From Akkermansiaceae bacterium (GTDB taxonomy: Bacteria > Verrucomicrobiota > Verrucomicrobiia > Verrucomicrobiales > Akkermansiaceae), in NCBI GenBank assembly GCA_903934285.1, contig CAIZNN010000027.1, forward strand, positions 1 through 41,966: 41,966 nucleotides of DNA, written 5' to 3'. The stretch's first letter is position 1, and each line of letters begins with the position of its first letter. The notes beneath the pieces are model-generated. The model was given only the letters and a program-made list of their open reading frames with translations, did not search any database and was not told the origin of the DNA. A program made the position numbers and the translations under genes. Of the stretch, positions 8,047-13,699 are shown piece after piece.

Positions 8047-10761
8047 ATGAAGATTGGCGAACTCCTGCTGCTGCACCACTCCCATCTGGATATCGGCTAC
8101 ACCCATCCGCCGCCGGTGGTCTGGGAGTTGCATGACCGCTGTCTCGACGAGGCCATCGACCTTTGCGAAGCCACCGCCACGTTCCCCGAGGGCAGCCGCT
8201 GCAAGTGGACCTGTGAGGTAACCAAGGCGGTGCTCCATTGGCTCGAATCCGCCAGCCCCGCGCAAGTCGCGCGCCTGCAACAACTCGTCGCCAACGGCCA
8301 GTTCTCCTTCGGCGCCATGCTCTATCACTGGACCGCGTTGCATCCCGAGGACCTCCTCCACGCCAGCCTCCAGCCACTCAAAAAATTGCGCGCCGTGCTC
8401 GGTGCCACGTTTGGTGTCGCCATCCAGACCGATGTGAATGGCGTGCCGTGGTCGACGGCCGACCTGCTGTTGGATGCCGGCATCAACCGGCTGATGATGA
8501 ACATCAACATCCACATGGGCGGCTATCCGTTGTCACGCCCGACGATTTTCCGCTGGCAGGCACCCAGCGGTCGCGAACTCACCGTGTTCAGCGGCGAACA
8601 TTACAACACCTTCAGCCGCGAGGCCGGACTCAAACACCCCGACTTCTCGCTCCAGCGCATGGCGCAAGGCCTCGACCGCTATTTCACCTGCCTGGCCGCC
8701 AAGGGCTGGCAACATGACTTCGCCATCCTCACCGCCACCCACCCGATGATGGACGACAACGGGCCGCCCAACCCGGAATTGCCCGGATTGGTTAGACAGT
8801 GGAACGCCAGCGGCAACCTGCCGTTCATCCGCCTCGTTTCAGTGGACGAAATCTTTGATAAAATCGCCACCCTCGAGCCGGCCCGCATCCCGCTCCACAC
8901 CGGTGACTGGACCGACTTCTGGACCAGCGGCGTGGCCGCCTCGGCACTGGATGTGACGCTGGCGCGGCGCGCCCACGGCGCGTTGTGGGCGGCCAAGGCG
9001 CTCGCCACCCAACTGCCAATCCCGGCACAAGCCAAGACCACGGCCACCACCGCCGCCGCCGATGAGAAGATGCATTTGGCCAACGAACACACCTGGAATT
9101 CCTATGCCTCAACCGGGGCTTTGGGCGTGGCTGGCACCGGCAAAATCGAGCCGATCCCAGTGGCCGAGCTGGCCATCGACAAATCGGAGAAATGCGCCGG
9201 CGCGCTGTCGTTGGCCCGTTTGGCGCGCCGCGACGCGCTGGACGTTTTGGCGGGCAATCCGGCGCAATCCCGCACCCAGGAAGGCCTGCTGCTCTTCAAC
9301 CCGAGCGAACTGCCGCGCACCGTGTGCTTGCGCATGACCCCCGATTTGGCCGCCGGCACTTACCACTTGGTCGGCGGCACCAAACACCGCCTGGACGTGA
9401 TCGAAGATATCCAGCGCGACACCCCTGCCACCGCTTGGTATGGCCCGGTCGAGCTGCCACCCTTGGCGCTCAAAACCGTCAAACTCACCACCCTCGGGCG
9501 CGACGCCGTGGCCGCTGGCCTCTGCCGCTCCCCAGGCGAGATCGCCAGCCGCTTCTGGTGCCTGCGATACCATACCGCCACCGGCGCCATCACCTCGCTG
9601 GTGCATCTGGCTTCCGGCCGCGAGTGCTTCGACGCCACGACCGGCTTCGCACTTTTCGGCCCGCTGCAGGAGACCGTCGCCGAACCAAGCCAGCACGGCA
9701 AGGATCTCAACGATCCGCGCTTCGATCTGTTCCGTGTGACCGAAGCCACCTTCGACGAGGTGATCCACGCCGATATCGCCGACTGGGCCACCGACTGGAA
9801 AGCCAGGCACACCCCTCCCACCCACGTCACGCGGGTCGAAACCCTCCTCGATGCCGATGGCGTGCACCTGAACCGGTATTTGCAAATGCCCGGGGTCAGC
9901 GGCGAGATGCAGCAGACCATCTCGTTGCCCGCCCACGAAGACCGGGTGCGCTTTGAGGCCTACTTCAACAAGGCCGACGATGCCAACCCGGAATCATTGT
10001 TCTTCACTTTCCCCTTCAACATCGAGGACGCACAAGCGCATTTCGACACCGCCGGCGTCGCGCTGGCCTATGACAAGGAACAATTGCCCGGCGCCTGCCG
10101 CGACTGGTTCACCGCCGGCTCGTTCGTCGCGGTGGCTGGCGCACCACATGCCGGCCATGCCGGCCATGCCGGCCATGCCGGCCATGCCGGCGGCTGCCTG
10201 ACCTTGGCCTGCCCCGATGCCCCCCTATTTCACTTGGGCGGCTTCAACTACGCACGCCGCCTCCGGGATGTGTCGCACCTCAATCACGCGCTGGTCATGG
10301 CGTGGCCCACTAACAATTACTGGAACACCAACTTCAAGGCCTCTCAACCCGGCTGGTTACGCTTTCGCTATGACCTGGCCTACACCCCGGCCTACAACCC
10401 CGCCTGGTCCGCCAGCTTCGCCTCCGCCGCGCGCCGCCCGGTCATCTTCCACCCGGTGGTCAACATGGCCGACGCGATTGCAGATGGCGCACTCATCGCC
10501 GGCCTGGGGGCCGACACCACTGTCGTTTCGCTCAAGCCCGGCCCCTGTGGCGCGTTGCTCGTCGGCCTGCGCAACCATGCCGCCACACCGCGCCTGATCC
10601 GGCCCACCTTTCCGGGCCGGTCCGCCGTGGCGCTGCTGCGCCTCAATGCGTTGGACGAAGACATCCAGGTGTTGTCGCTTGACGCCCCGGTCGAACTTGC
10701 CGGCCGCGCCACCACATGGTTGCGCGTGGCGTTTGACCAACCCGCCGCCACGCCAGCATAA
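8047..10761 (+). CDS. GH38-like glycoside hydrolase (alpha-mannosidase superfamily)
   Basis: 904 residues, no signal peptide, so cytoplasmic. The first residues carry the GH38-type metal-binding signature HSHLDIGYTH (about 11-20). IQTDVNGVPWSTADLL (about 125-140) lies where GH38 enzymes place the nucleophile aspartate, and TATHPMMDDNGPPN follows near 233. DWTDFWTSG (about 295) and ALWAAKAL come before a long C-terminal all-beta region like the GH38 C-terminal domains, with typical LEVxR- and HYDxxTGAITSL-like strands. The assignment as retaining alpha-mannosidase-like is at superfamily level; several similar proteins are only annotated as GH38-related. The operon position after a symporter and a Gfo/Idh enzyme suggests hydrolysis or processing of an imported glycoside. 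A 9-bp tandem repeat encodes (His-Ala-Gly)n near residue 701-715. Confidence 0.75.
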   Translation: MKIGELLLLHHSHLDIGYTHPPPVVWELHDRCLDEAIDLCEATATFPEGSRCKWTCEVTKAVLHWLESASPAQVARLQQLVANGQFSFGAMLYHWTALHPEDLLHASLQPLKKLRAVLGATFGVAIQTDVNGVPWSTADLLLDAGINRLMMNINIHMGGYPLSRPTIFRWQAPSGRELTVFSGEHYNTFSREAGLKHPDFSLQRMAQGLDRYFTCLAAKGWQHDFAILTATHPMMDDNGPPNPELPGLVRQWNASGNLPFIRLVSVDEIFDKIATLEPARIPLHTGDWTDFWTSGVAASALDVTLARRAHGALWAAKALATQLPIPAQAKTTATTAAADEKMHLANEHTWNSYASTGALGVAGTGKIEPIPVAELAIDKSEKCAGALSLARLARRDALDVLAGNPAQSRTQEGLLLFNPSELPRTVCLRMTPDLAAGTYHLVGGTKHRLDVIEDIQRDTPATAWYGPVELPPLALKTVKLTTLGRDAVAAGLCRSPGEIASRFWCLRYHTATGAITSLVHLASGRECFDATTGFALFGPLQETVAEPSQHGKDLNDPRFDLFRVTEATFDEVIHADIADWATDWKARHTPPTHVTRVETLLDADGVHLNRYLQMPGVSGEMQQTISLPAHEDRVRFEAYFNKADDANPESLFFTFPFNIEDAQAHFDTAGVALAYDKEQLPGACRDWFTAGSFVAVAGAPHAGHAGHAGHAGHAGGCLTLACPDAPLFHLGGFNYARRLRDVSHLNHALVMAWPTNNYWNTNFKASQPGWLRFRYDLAYTPAYNPAWSASFASAARRPVIFHPVVNMADAIADGALIAGLGADTTVVSLKPGPCGALLVGLRNHAATPRLIRPTFPGRSAVALLRLNALDEDIQVLSLDAPVELAGRATTWLRVAFDQPAATPA
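10147..10191 (+). repeat. Five tandem copies of a 9-bp unit (CATGCCGGC) inside the GH38-like gene
   Basis: Five identical copies of CATGCCGGC run in frame and encode repeated His-Ala-Gly within the C-terminal beta domain. The unit length keeps the frame when copies are gained or lost, so the site could vary in length without breaking the gene. Confidence 0.9.
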
Positions 10762-10832
10762 GGCCGCGAGCCATGCCCCACGCCCGCCGCCGGAAAAAAT
10801 CCCAAAGCGTTTGGCTGACTGGGACAACACTT

Positions 10833-10912
10833 GGTACTGAGCCTGTGTGCTCTGGCGTCGCCGTTCCCATTGTCCATAAACATAATGCCAGCCATTACCT
10901 TATTGACAACGG
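10833..10912 (+). repeat. Left flanking repeat of the REP-type transposase
   Basis: This begins with GGTACTGAGCCTGTGT (10833-10848) and ends with ATAATGCCAGCCATTA (10882-10897) followed by a TTGACA-containing stretch. Both blocks recur in the same order on the other side of the transposase at 12352-12454. TAATG and CATTA form a small hairpin around CCAGC. CCGTT (10861-10865) and AACGG (10908-10912) can pair outside it. TTGACA (10903-10908) with TATTCC 17 bases later (10926-10931) might also act as a promoter for the transposase; if so, its start site would lie near the first ATG, favouring a later start codon. Confidence 0.7.
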
Positions 10913-10937
10913 CTGCTAAATCCGATATTCCCGCTAC

Positions 10938-12305
10938 ATGAAAACGAATCGTTGGTTGGGAGTGCTGAATTCCGTGTCTGATAGCAGGTCTGGTGGCGGC
11001 GGGACGAGGCGGCGTGGGGCGGCGGCGCTGGCGACTGGCGGGGAGATGGAAGCGGTGGCAGCAACTGCGGCAGGCGAAACGGCAGGCGAAACGGCAGGCG
11101 GAACGGCAGGCGAAACGGCAGGCGGAACGGCGGCCGCGGTGGAGGGGATGGATGCGACAATGGAACCCAAGCCACGAGTGCTCTCGCCCTTGGAACGGAT
11201 TGAATTGCCGACGGGAGCCAGCCTTGGCCGGGTGTTTGCACGGGGCTGGAAGGGCGGGCGGCAGCGGATCGTGCTGAGTCCGACGGAGGGCGCGAGCTAT
11301 CACATCATGAGCCGCACCGCAGGCGGCGAACACTTGCTCGGCGAGACGGAAAAAGAAGCGCTGCGCCGCCTGATGTGGCGCTTGGCCCGCTTCGCCGGTG
11401 TGGAAATCCGCACCTACGCGGTCATGGATAACCATTTTCATATCCTCGCGCGGGTGCCGGCCCACGACGAGTTCGTGGCGCAATTCGCCGGTCCGGGCGG
11501 CGAGGAACGCTTGCTCGACCACCTGCTCCTGCTGTATTCGCGACACTACGTGGCGGCGTTGCGGGTGGAGTTGGCAGACCTGCGGAAACGCGGGATGCCG
11601 GAGGAGGCGGACGCACTCATCGCGGGCTATCTGCGGCGGATGTGCAATCTGCCGGTGTTTGTGAAGGAGCTGAAAGAGCGGTTTACGCGCTGGCACAACA
11701 GGCACCGGGACCGGCGCGGGACGCTGTGGATGGAACGCTTCAAAAGCGTGCTGGTGGAGGACGGCGAGGCGCTGCGCACGATGGCCGCCTACATCGACCT
11801 CAACCCGGTGCGGGCGGGAATGGTGAAAGATCCGAAAGATTACCGGTGGTGCGGCTACGGCGAAGCGATGGGCGGCGGCAAGGCGGCCCGCCTGGGACTG
11901 TGCCAGGTGGCCGGTCACGGCGAGCGCGGCGAGACGGCTTGGGACACCCCCGCCGTGGCCAAGGGCATGAGCGCGGCGGAAGTCTATCGCTGCTGGTTGT
12001 TTGAGGATGGGAAGACCCGCCAGACCCGCGGGGACAAGGCAACCAAGGGCGGGTTTTCCACCGAGGCCGCAGAGGTGGAGAAAAAGCGGAAGGGGAAATT
12101 GAGCCGGGCCGCGTTGCTGCGCTGCCGGGTGCGGTATTTTTCCGACGGGTTGGTGCTGGGCACCAAATCCTATGTGGACGGGGTGTTTGAGACCTATCGC
12201 GGGCATTTCGGGCCGAAGCGAACGAGCGGCGCGCGGGCGCTGCGCGAAGACGCCCAAGGCAGCCTGTTCACCGCACGCCAGTTGTCAGTGAGAACGGTGG
12301 GGTGA
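10938..12305 (+). mobile_element. REP-associated tyrosine transposase (Y1/HUH family, TnpA-REP-like)
   Basis: 455 residues as read from ATG at 10938. The core matches REP-associated Y1 transposases: YHIMSRTAGGEHLL near residue 117, the HUH motif in YAVMDNHFHILARV (near 158-171), a GTLWMERFKSVLVED segment, and MAAYIDLNPVRAGMV (near 283), which carries the catalytic tyrosine. Such enzymes are single-copy housekeeping transposases that nick and spread short palindromic REP sequences. The first 70 residues are low-complexity (Gly/Thr/Ala/Glu) and encoded by a 12-bp tandem repeat. ATG at 11148, directly behind GGAGGGG, or ATG at 11160 may be the true start. The C-terminal 130 residues are an extension beyond the core domain. 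Flanking direct repeats at 10833 and 12352 fit mobilisation by this enzyme. Confidence 0.85.
11069..11128 (+). repeat. Five tandem copies of a 12-bp unit (GGCAGGCGAAAC) at the transposase 5' end
   Basis: Units at 11069, 11081, 11093, 11105 and 11117 differ only by A/G at one position and encode Ala-Gly-Glu/Gly-Thr repeats. The stretch lies upstream of the conserved domain and of the better ribosome-binding site at 11141-11145, so it may be leader sequence and not coding. Confidence 0.9.
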
Positions 12306-12351
12306 TGTCATGATGTTCAAGCAGGGCATTTGGCTGGTCGGGGCTATGCCG

Positions 12352-12454
12352 GGTACTGAGCCTGTGTCCGCTGCCACCGCCGGTGATCGCCGGGTGCTGA
12401 CTTCTTGGGGACAATTGCCACTATAATGCCAGCCATTAAGTTGTTGACAGTGGC
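12352..12454 (+). repeat. Right flanking repeat of the REP-type transposase
   Basis: GGTACTGAGCCTGTGT (12352-12367) and ATAATGCCAGCCATTA (12423-12438) are exact copies of the two blocks on the left side, 16 of 16 bases each. The second is followed by AGTTGTTGACAGTGG, related to the left copy. GCCACT (12417-12422) and AGTGGC (12449-12454) pair around the inner small hairpin, so the whole unit is palindromic. The sequence between the two shared blocks differs in length and content from the left copy. Confidence 0.75.
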
Positions 12455-12660
12455 GGGTTGGGCATGCGGCGCGTCTTTCAAGACGAGGAGGGGCGCGGAG
12501 TTGGACGACGCGGGCATGGCGGTTGGTTTGCGCTCGCGGTGGAGGTTACCCAGTGGCCAGGGGTGCTTCGAGGCCTTGAGGGTGCAGCAACCGGCAACCA
12601 GCATCGAGCAACCCGCGGCGAGCAAAGGTGGGGTGGGGTCATGGCCCGGCTAACATGACG

Positions 12661-12682
12661 AGCTCAGCACCGATGCTGAGCT
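12661..12682. repeat. Perfect hairpin with 9-bp stem, REP-like
   Basis: AGCTCAGCA and TGCTGAGCT form a perfect nine-base stem around CCGA. GGTACT, the first six bases of the flanking repeats, follows directly (12683-12688). A palindrome next to a short conserved tag is the usual form of a REP element. There is no T-run after it, so it is a poor terminator. Confidence 0.6.
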
Positions 12683-12829
12683 GGTACTCAAAAAGCTTTG
12701 CGATTCCGCGCACGGAGGCTGATTGAGCCAATCGCCCCTTGGCCCCCCCACGTCAAAACCACGCTTGACGCCACGGCCGGGAAGCGGGACCTTGGCCGCG
12801 CGCGACATTGCCCGTTACGCACCCGTTGC

Positions 12830-13699
12830 ATGCACCCGATCACTGCCAAAATCCAACTCAGCCCGAACGTCACCCGGCTCGATGTCGAGGCCCGCCGCAT
12901 CGCCGAAATCCGCCAGCCCGGCCAGTTCGTCATCGTGCGCCGCGGCAACGGCGCCGAACGCATCCCGCTGACCATCGCCGACGCCGACCCGGCCCGCGGC
13001 ACCATCACGCTGGTGATCCAGGCAGTTGGGAAATCCACCCGTGAGCTGGTCGCCCTTGAGCCTGGCGAAGCGATCTTGGATATCTCCGGCCCGCTCGGCC
13101 ATCCCACCGAGATGATCGCCGCCGGCCGTGCCGTGTGCGTCGGCGGCGGCGTGGGCACCGCCGTGGTCCACCCGATCGCCCAGGGCTTGCACCAGCGCGG
13201 CGTCGAGGTCATCAGCATTATCGGCGGCCGCTCGCGCGAATGGGTCATTTTTGAGGAGGAATTGCGCCGCCTCGGCCAGGTGGTGGTGTGTACCGACGAC
13301 GGCAGCTACGGCCGCCCGGGGTTTGTGACCGACGCCACCCGCGACGTGTTAGAAGCTGGCGGTGTCGACATCGTCTATGCGGTCGGCCCGGTGCCGATGA
13401 TGCGGGCGGTGGCCGATCTAACACGCCCCTACGGTGTGCGCACCATCGTGTCGCTCAACCCGGTGATGGTCGATGGCACGGGCATGTGCGGCGGTTGCCG
13501 GGTGGACATCGGCGGCCACACCAAGTTTGCCTGTGTGGATGGCCCGGAATTCGACGGTCATCTGGTGGATTTCGACTTGTTAGCCGAGCGGCTCGGCACC
13601 TATCGCGAATTTGAGCAACAAGCCAAGACTGCCTGCGACGCCGGCAGCTGCCGCGTCGGGCTTGTGCGTCCAGCACCAACCCCCGCCCCCCAACCGTGA
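12830..13699 (+). CDS. nfnA: Ferredoxin-NADP reductase / sulfide dehydrogenase small (NfnA-like) subunit
   Basis: 289 residues. An FAD-binding ferredoxin-reductase-type barrel (about 1-95, with RRGNGAERIPLTIAD) is followed by an NAD(P)-binding domain (CVGGGVGTAVVHPIAQ near 104; YAVGPVPMM near 186). A C-terminal [2Fe-2S] site has DGTGMCGGCRVDIG and a later FACVDGPEFDGH. This matches NfnA / SudB, the partner of a GltA-like large subunit. In anaerobes the NfnAB complex transfers electrons between NADH, reduced ferredoxin and NADP, often by flavin-based bifurcation. The start at ATG 12830 (MHPITAKIQLSP) was chosen because the 44 codons upstream show no family similarity. Its TGA overlaps the GTG of the next gene as GTGA, so the two subunits are translationally coupled. 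Confidence 0.9.
   Translation: MHPITAKIQLSPNVTRLDVEARRIAEIRQPGQFVIVRRGNGAERIPLTIADADPARGTITLVIQAVGKSTRELVALEPGEAILDISGPLGHPTEMIAAGRAVCVGGGVGTAVVHPIAQGLHQRGVEVISIIGGRSREWVIFEEELRRLGQVVVCTDDGSYGRPGFVTDATRDVLEAGGVDIVYAVGPVPMMRAVADLTRPYGVRTIVSLNPVMVDGTGMCGGCRVDIGGHTKFACVDGPEFDGHLVDFDLLAERLGTYREFEQQAKTACDAGSCRVGLVRPAPTPAPQP

Follow-up and report, generated by a model that had tools for sequence, protein, structure and literature searches.

A short palindrome followed at a fixed distance by TTGAC is found at the 5′ ends of a group of Y1/HUH transposase genes, marks one half of a transposase tree from Verrucomicrobiota and is dispersed in about 110 copies through the genome of an uncultured Akkermansiaceae bacterium (G000; 4,795,702 bases in 282 contigs, 96.88% complete, contamination 3.42). 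On these sequence comparisons, gene and palindrome probably make up a RAYT/TnpA_REP-like mobile element of Verrucomicrobiota, whose transposase, TnpA, recognises the palindrome and TTGAC at its own 5′ end. The candidate recognition site would consist of the short palindrome (clade core TGCCAGGCA; ATAATGCCAGSCATTAT in the window, that is, the whole stretch of 41,966 nucleotides under analysis) with TTGAC 5 bases beyond it.

The transposase locus and its repeats

The original prediction described two 16-base blocks that recur in the same order and direction on both sides of a Y1/HUH transposase gene, with different spacers between them, and took them for REP sequences at the home locus of their transposase. 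Both blocks are indeed present as exact copies on the two sides of the open reading frame at 10938-12305, with order and direction preserved; the spacers do differ, and the reading frame encodes a Y1/HUH transposase (Pfam Y1_Tnp, E 4.6e-8). That description missed the TTGAC that stands 5 bases 3′ of both palindromes, as well as the terminal inverted repeats outside the blocks. The features of the locus are as follows.

10804-10848, + strand: left arm, a degenerate terminal inverted repeat (AAAGCGTTTGGCTGACTGG) ending in block 1 (blastn of 10790-10940 against the fetched stretches; end-motif scan)
10833-10848, + strand: block 1 (GGTACTGAGCCTGTGT), copy 1 (exact sequence match; 15 genome matches at up to 2 mismatches)
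10882-10897, + strand: palindrome block (ATAATGCCAGCCATTA), copy 1 (exact sequence match)
10903-10907, + strand: TTGAC tag of palindrome copy 1, GTCAA on the other strand (same offset exact in 99 of 106 copies)
10938-12305, + strand: tnpA, 455-aa Y1/HUH transposase (Pfam; HuH H166/H168, W264, catalytic Y285, N289-P290)
12324-12367, + strand: second left arm (GGGCATTTGGCTGGTCGGGGC...) ending in block 1 (blastn; end-motif scan)
12352-12367, + strand: block 1 (GGTACTGAGCCTGTGT), copy 2 (exact; closes the second left arm)
12423-12438, + strand: palindrome block (ATAATGCCAGCCATTA), copy 2 (exact sequence match)
12444-12448, + strand: TTGAC tag of palindrome copy 2 (same offset as copy 1)
12658-12738, + strand: right arm, with an inner inverted repeat at 12658-12685 and a terminal inverted repeat ending GAGCCAATCGCCCC (blastn; end-motif scan)

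The window holds a gene-bearing unit followed head to tail by a gene-less unit, within terminal inverted repeats whose arms lie near 10804 (degenerate) and 12738. The same blocks stand on both sides of tnpA because a second left arm and palindrome come directly after the stop codon. The left arm (CAGGGCGTTTGGCTGACTGGGGCAACTCTTGGTACTGAGCCTGTGTC) includes block 1, and the right arm, read outward, starts CAGGGCGATTGGCTTAATCAGCC. Block 1 has 7+8 matches in the genome at up to two mismatches (reversed pattern 0+1); in 11 of the 15 cases a same-direction palindrome follows within 140 bases, and of the other four, two come after tnpA genes, one borders a contig edge and one is located elsewhere. Many intergenic copies had been expected of both blocks; the second is found in numerous tagged, mostly intergenic copies, whereas the first is, judged by its matches, a part of the left arm of the larger unit and no independent REP. 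Both arms also occur without a gene, for example around two palindromes at C263:42340-42563, and one or both are missing in several gene copies. Across 10700-12850, no Rfam family reached its gathering score.

The flanks of the C263 element are 83% and 79% identical in a relative, G006, in which the gap between them measures 281 bases versus 472 and shows by eye neither arms nor palindromes. This element, bounded by terminal repeats and carrying two palindromes, represents a presence/absence difference between species rather than an empty allele, and no base-exact junction can be drawn because the G006 flanks are too diverged. In a search for an empty site of the window locus, the ~1.5 kb ahead of the downstream neighbour's homologue in G006, G019 and G018 showed no GH38 gene, and by eye nothing convincing as a target-site duplication was seen at C263 or in the window. 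The G006 C385 intergenic gap (L249) contains a long palindrome (TACAATATATTTGGACGATCGTCCAAATATATTGTA) where G000 has the mobile element.

The transposase has the motifs of its class. Against NCBIfam it scores 66.8 bits with NF047646 REP_Tyr_transpos, below the cut-off of 80, and 14.4 bits with transpos_IS200 (cut-off 55), and its tyrosine motif is YIDLNP, with no Y---Q. The HuH, W, Y and NP residues, including H166, H168, Y285, N289 and P290, are invariant in 40 of 40 aligned sequences; a reading in which the catalytic tyrosine is missing (LKERFTRWHN) is wrong, the tyrosine being that of YIDLNP. The predicted structure (pLDDT 79.1, pTM 0.73; residues 1-69 below 50) has as its best Foldseek match 4er8, the E. 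coli TnpA_REP with a REP hairpin (E 4.2e-6, target TM 0.72). Two further repeats were seen in coding sequence of the window: a 12-bp minisatellite (CGGCAGGCGAAA) at 11056-11148, in the low-complexity N-terminal part of tnpA, and several copies of a 9-bp repeat (GCCGGCCAT-like) at 10150-10195, within a GH38-like gene.

tnpA is multicopy. The genome yields 75 tnpA matches, seven of them with at least 395 of the 455 residues aligned at 75-100% identity, although many transposase pieces end at contig ends, which means that copy number and truncation can be judged for only part of them. Among 24 first-family copies displayed and read by eye, 17 have their 5′ flank in view, and 15 of these carry the palindrome ahead of the start; the two that do not, L055 and L066, start at residues 211 and 159 and are 5′-truncated. 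A same-direction palindrome within 330 bases downstream is found in 4 of the 15 copies with a 3′ flank, and an inverted one in a single copy (L054). A second transposase family is present at ~45% identity. Upstream of second-family genes (L069, L071-L074) we noticed further repeats of palindrome-like form (GGAATAGGATGCTCCTCTTGTGT; GATGCCTAGTGAAGTCTCC), in part tandem, which may constitute a parallel system that uses a motif of its own.

A dispersed and tagged palindrome

Across the whole genome the palindrome core has 67+64 matches (131) at up to two mismatches, and the 26-base pattern of palindrome plus TTGAC has 56+57 (113) at up to three mismatches in the 4.8 Mb; the reversed patterns give 0+0 in both cases, and chance is therefore excluded. 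The number of matches exceeds that of copies because symmetrical copies match on both strands. We extracted 106 copies, by the palindrome alone with two substitutions allowed, from 74 merged stretches (286,023 bases) that had been chosen for holding matches, and the figure thus describes these stretches, not the genome total. TTGAC lies exactly 5 bases past the palindrome 15-mer in 99 of the 106 copies (YGTCAA when read on the other strand). Information content is high at positions -1 to 15, except 9, and again at 20 to 24; it is lower in the linker (16-19) and drops beyond ~33. With a home-made, heuristic gene caller based on codon bias, 72 of the 84 copies that stand apart from tnpA (see below) lie outside called genes.

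The second block had been called a palindrome enclosed by an outer inverted repeat. It is palindromic, but imperfectly: positions 4/10 pair in all 106 copies and 3/11 in 105, but 5/9 in just 32, a pattern that, on sequence, fits a loop at 5-9 and equally the absence of a hairpin. No compensatory changes were seen in the stem pairs of the 106 copies. When folded against shuffles, the window palindromes on both strands give z from -0.21 to -1.59, with no clear margin, and a copy with a perfect palindrome gives -1.50. The outer inverted repeat is present at both window sites (GCCGTT/AACGGC and GCCACT/AGTGGC), yet it does not extend to the repeat in general, since over the 46 solo clusters the duplex energy between upstream and downstream flanks was no better than with permuted partners (p = 0.757); as a general part of the repeat it is ruled out. 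Nor is there a fixed GTAG foot: the linker beside the palindrome varies, and GTAG appears in some copies only. Because the clade core TGCCAGGCA permits only a very short stem, the site may be recognised as double-stranded DNA.

Copies are arranged with a strict polarity. All 43 neighbouring pairs up to 300 bp apart, with direction assigned from the TTGAC tag, point the same way, and none is inverted. The closest spacings, 39-42 bp in 7 of the 43 pairs, put the smallest unit near 40 bp. DNA of tnpA follows within 300 bp after 22 of the 106 copies, and the remaining 84 form 46 clusters. This blastn-based split replaces one of 8 linked and 98 solo copies made with a strict ungapped rule; 14 of those 98 became linked. 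Of the 98 solo copies of the strict split, 92 lose their resemblance to the tnpA 5′ end no more than 17 bases from the first T of TTGAC. Intermediate lengths are also present, with tnpA pieces that follow a palindrome and are cut short in C19 and C223 of the same genome.

These data bear on another reading, in which the palindrome is an operator beside the -35 box (TTGACA) of tnpA and serves self-regulation. The solo copies would then be remnants of decayed elements, scattered by ordinary recombination or through the outer terminal inverted repeats, and would not be units recognised for transposition. By inspection, the TTGAC of copy 1 doubles as a -35-like box ahead of tnpA, ~17 bases before a -10-like stretch, and the order palindrome, TTGAC, start recurs across the clade. 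A dyad of 9-11 bp is also what proteins that bind double-stranded DNA typically recognise. In 31 clusters the gene on the right is read away from TTGAC, against 9 in which it is not (6 of 46 undecided), a bias that is only suggestive because some of the 31 clusters sit behind a tnpA gene. On the other hand, TTGAC is kept in the solo copies even though a -10-like box 16-18 bases from it was found in 0 of 84, by a rule that also finds it in just 2 of the 22 linked copies; and the end of tnpA similarity so close to TTGAC makes these copies more like units than like debris. We therefore regard the operator reading as unlikely, though not far-fetched. A portable promoter was likewise rejected on the 0 of 84, which is weak ground given that the rule is E. 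coli-type and recovers 2 of 22 linked copies. Two observations are recorded here in their own right. On the minus strand, tag and palindrome at 10882-10909 make up a promoter-like TTGTCA-16-CATTAT; and only one clearly convergent site was seen among the 46 solo clusters, which would be unusual for REPs if real.

The palindrome in relatives and on the transposase tree

In 59 genomes, the one studied here included, the 26-base pattern has 113 matches in G000, 40 in G006, 2 in G019 and 1 each in G029 and G051; the other 54 have none, and the reversed control has none in any. A tnpA relative of at least 71% identity is found only in the genome itself and in G006, the next best among the matches listed being at 49-54%. 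In G006, too, tnpA has a palindrome on its 5′ side (L271), and four further sites fetched from contig interiors show one solo copy and three tandem pairs, 40, 41 and 31 bp apart; one of the pairs (L270) is followed by a weak match to tnpA. A looser pattern gives 2-16 matches each in G006 and six other genomes (reversed control 0-2); dispersal is therefore not general in the clade. In G040, four fetched stretches have a palindrome near a contig end and no tnpA match within the stretch.

A rule (TGMCWGNCA, 3-14 bases, then a TTGAC-like tag), which was written after reading the upstream regions and so was not blind, is found upstream of 26 of 62 Verrucomicrobiota transposases and downstream, as a control, of 3 of 62. 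On a quick tree, with midpoint root and no bootstrap, it occurs in 25 of the 31 rows of one half and in 1 of 31 outside (SH-aLRT 99), and it needs 7 changes compared with 20.1 in shuffles, none of 500 shuffles being as low. Five of the six rows of the marked half that fail the rule (L081, L085, L090, L092, L187) show a core that resembles the palindrome, but with a changed tag, and the sixth, L191, has no palindrome-like core upstream; L211, the sole match outside, is probably due to chance. More distant transposases (L101, L102, L193, L197, L202) are preceded by motifs of the GGGGACAG, GGGACAG and CTGTCCC types, which resemble the TIRYT consensus GGGGWSAS.

In one stretch of Prosthecobacter (L091) five palindromes follow one another, and the sequences between them match the tnpA 5′ end for 304, 119, 1255 and 163 alignment columns; each of these four gives way to the next palindrome, and what follows the last palindrome continues up to the edge of L091. 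L090 and C33 contribute two more junctions; in L090 the first piece is missing an internal section as well. At all six, a 3′-truncated tnpA meets the next palindrome head to tail; five end at the A-rich lead of that palindrome, and at the fourth junction of L091 a palindrome-like remnant of ~19 bases lies in between. All three arrays are within ~2 kb of a MAG contig end and may in part be assembly products. They could have formed when new copies, fixed at the start and variable at the end, landed there, or when deletions ran from the palindrome edge into the preceding copy; both readings require action at the palindrome. That the truncations stop at the palindrome side also speaks against the solo copies being the debris of decay.

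The same genome weighs on the idea that the palindromes are older repeats used by the transposon as insertion targets, in the way that some insertion sequences target REPs. Solo palindromes do outnumber gene-linked ones, 84 to 22 in the stretches examined, as this idea would have it. The Prosthecobacter genome, however, has 13 palindrome matches at up to one mismatch (reversed control 1), 10 being 5′ ends of tnpA and the other 3 unrelated; palindrome and tag track the transposase tree; and of the 58 relatives, none that lacks a close tnpA has many palindromes, 54 having none and three having 1-2 weak matches. The insertion-target reading is mostly refuted, and we consider it very improbable.

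Known systems and the mode of spread

The available text of the classification of TnpAY1 proteins describes class 2 by a Y---NP motif, assigns to subclass 2.3 several copies and a HuH-Y distance with a median of 110, and reports no REP-like neighbours for subclasses 2.1 and 2.3 (Quentin 2018, PMC6006769). By motifs alone the window protein appears 2.3- or 2.1-like: its NHFH/YIDLNP is close to NHYH/YVDLNP, its HuH-Y distance is 120, and it shares the long C-terminal part and the several copies per genome. Unlike those subclasses, for which no REP-like sequences are reported there, the palindromes are abundant here, and a 2.3/2.1-like protein with an abundant tagged palindrome therefore departs from the scheme as that text presents it.

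With the TnpA_REP/RAYT REPtron of the same account (PMC6006769) the system shares HuH and Y---NP, a fold nearest to 4er8 and dispersed, tagged palindromes tied to one transposase clade. This fold and active site, together with palindromes cognate with that clade, favour the home-locus proposal, in which a resident transposase, with REPs on either side, would act on them in trans to make them mobile. The dispersed tagged palindromes it foresaw are there, but the form is different: the GT[AG]G foot is absent, the tag is 5 bases off, the copies are head to tail in 43 of 43 pairs, the hairpin appears weak, the transposase is long (455 aa) and multicopy, and a downstream palindrome accompanies only 4 of 15 copies. 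An ordinary REP/RAYT system is thus disfavoured on form, and we hold it to be improbable.

Other described repeats resemble parts of the picture. In the portion of the literature available to us, GTAG and CGTC tags and TIRYTs have been described, with GTAG repeats in the verrucomicrobium Opitutus terrae, and the TIRs have a GGGGWSAS consensus common to only some of them (Di Nocera 2013, PMC3733652). Like a TIRYT/TIRtron, the element has a RAYT-like gene within terminal inverted repeats that are also found off the gene; unlike GGGGWSAS, the terminal repeat here is CAGGGCGWTTGGCT and is joined to a tagged palindrome (PMC3733652). The other-strand YGTCAA resembles the CGTC/TGTC of the CGTC-tagged REP super-family, whose tag, as described there, adjoins the base of a stem of 8-9 bp, with no transposase attached (Di Nocera 2013, PMC3733652); here about six bases lie between stem and tag, and a transposase goes with them. 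The high copy number (113) and the mostly intergenic position (72 of 84) match canonical REPs, while the inverted pairs of REPINs and BIMEs are represented by 0 of 43 neighbouring pairs. IS200/IS605 elements share the HUH transposase and the nature of a mobile, multicopy element, with Y---NP here instead of Y---Q. IS91-like elements undergo one-ended transposition, with a fixed start and a variable end, which the fixed start and variable end proposed here resemble.

How the repeats arose can be sketched on the assumption that the palindrome and TTGAC are what TnpA recognises. TnpA, an HUH enzyme with one catalytic tyrosine (Y285), would nick single-stranded DNA at the palindrome-TTGAC and join it elsewhere. 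The palindrome side would be the fixed end and the other end would be imprecise, and such imprecision would yield full copies, 3′-truncated copies and 40-bp stubs ('REPs'), often just ahead of an existing palindrome. It is conceivable, and we suggest it tentatively, that polar copying by a self-mobile, multicopy RAYT leaves the repeats behind as 5′ stubs, each copy starting at the palindrome-TTGAC, ending anywhere downstream and landing before an existing palindrome. The tandem arrays could instead come from recombination and deletion rather than from copying. For REPs themselves, the tag is described as a guide, with cutting at CT/CA, and, in the text available, the way they spread is described as poorly understood and TnpA_REP as a transposase that has been domesticated (NAR 2021, PMC8266576). 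A search of the literature within our reach, which most subscription journals were beyond, returned nothing on this palindrome or on REPs accompanying such transposases in Verrucomicrobiota.

The system departs from the standard REP system and looks like an unusual, still-mobile variant of the partnership between REPs and their transposase. Here a multicopy transposase, truncated copies and minimal repeats coexist, whereas the nearest described subclasses are reported without REPs in the available text of PMC6006769; this coexistence makes the order of events testable. If the proposed mode of spread is true, it would provide a direct route from a transposon to a REP population with the intermediates present (full element, 3′-truncated copies and 40-bp stubs).
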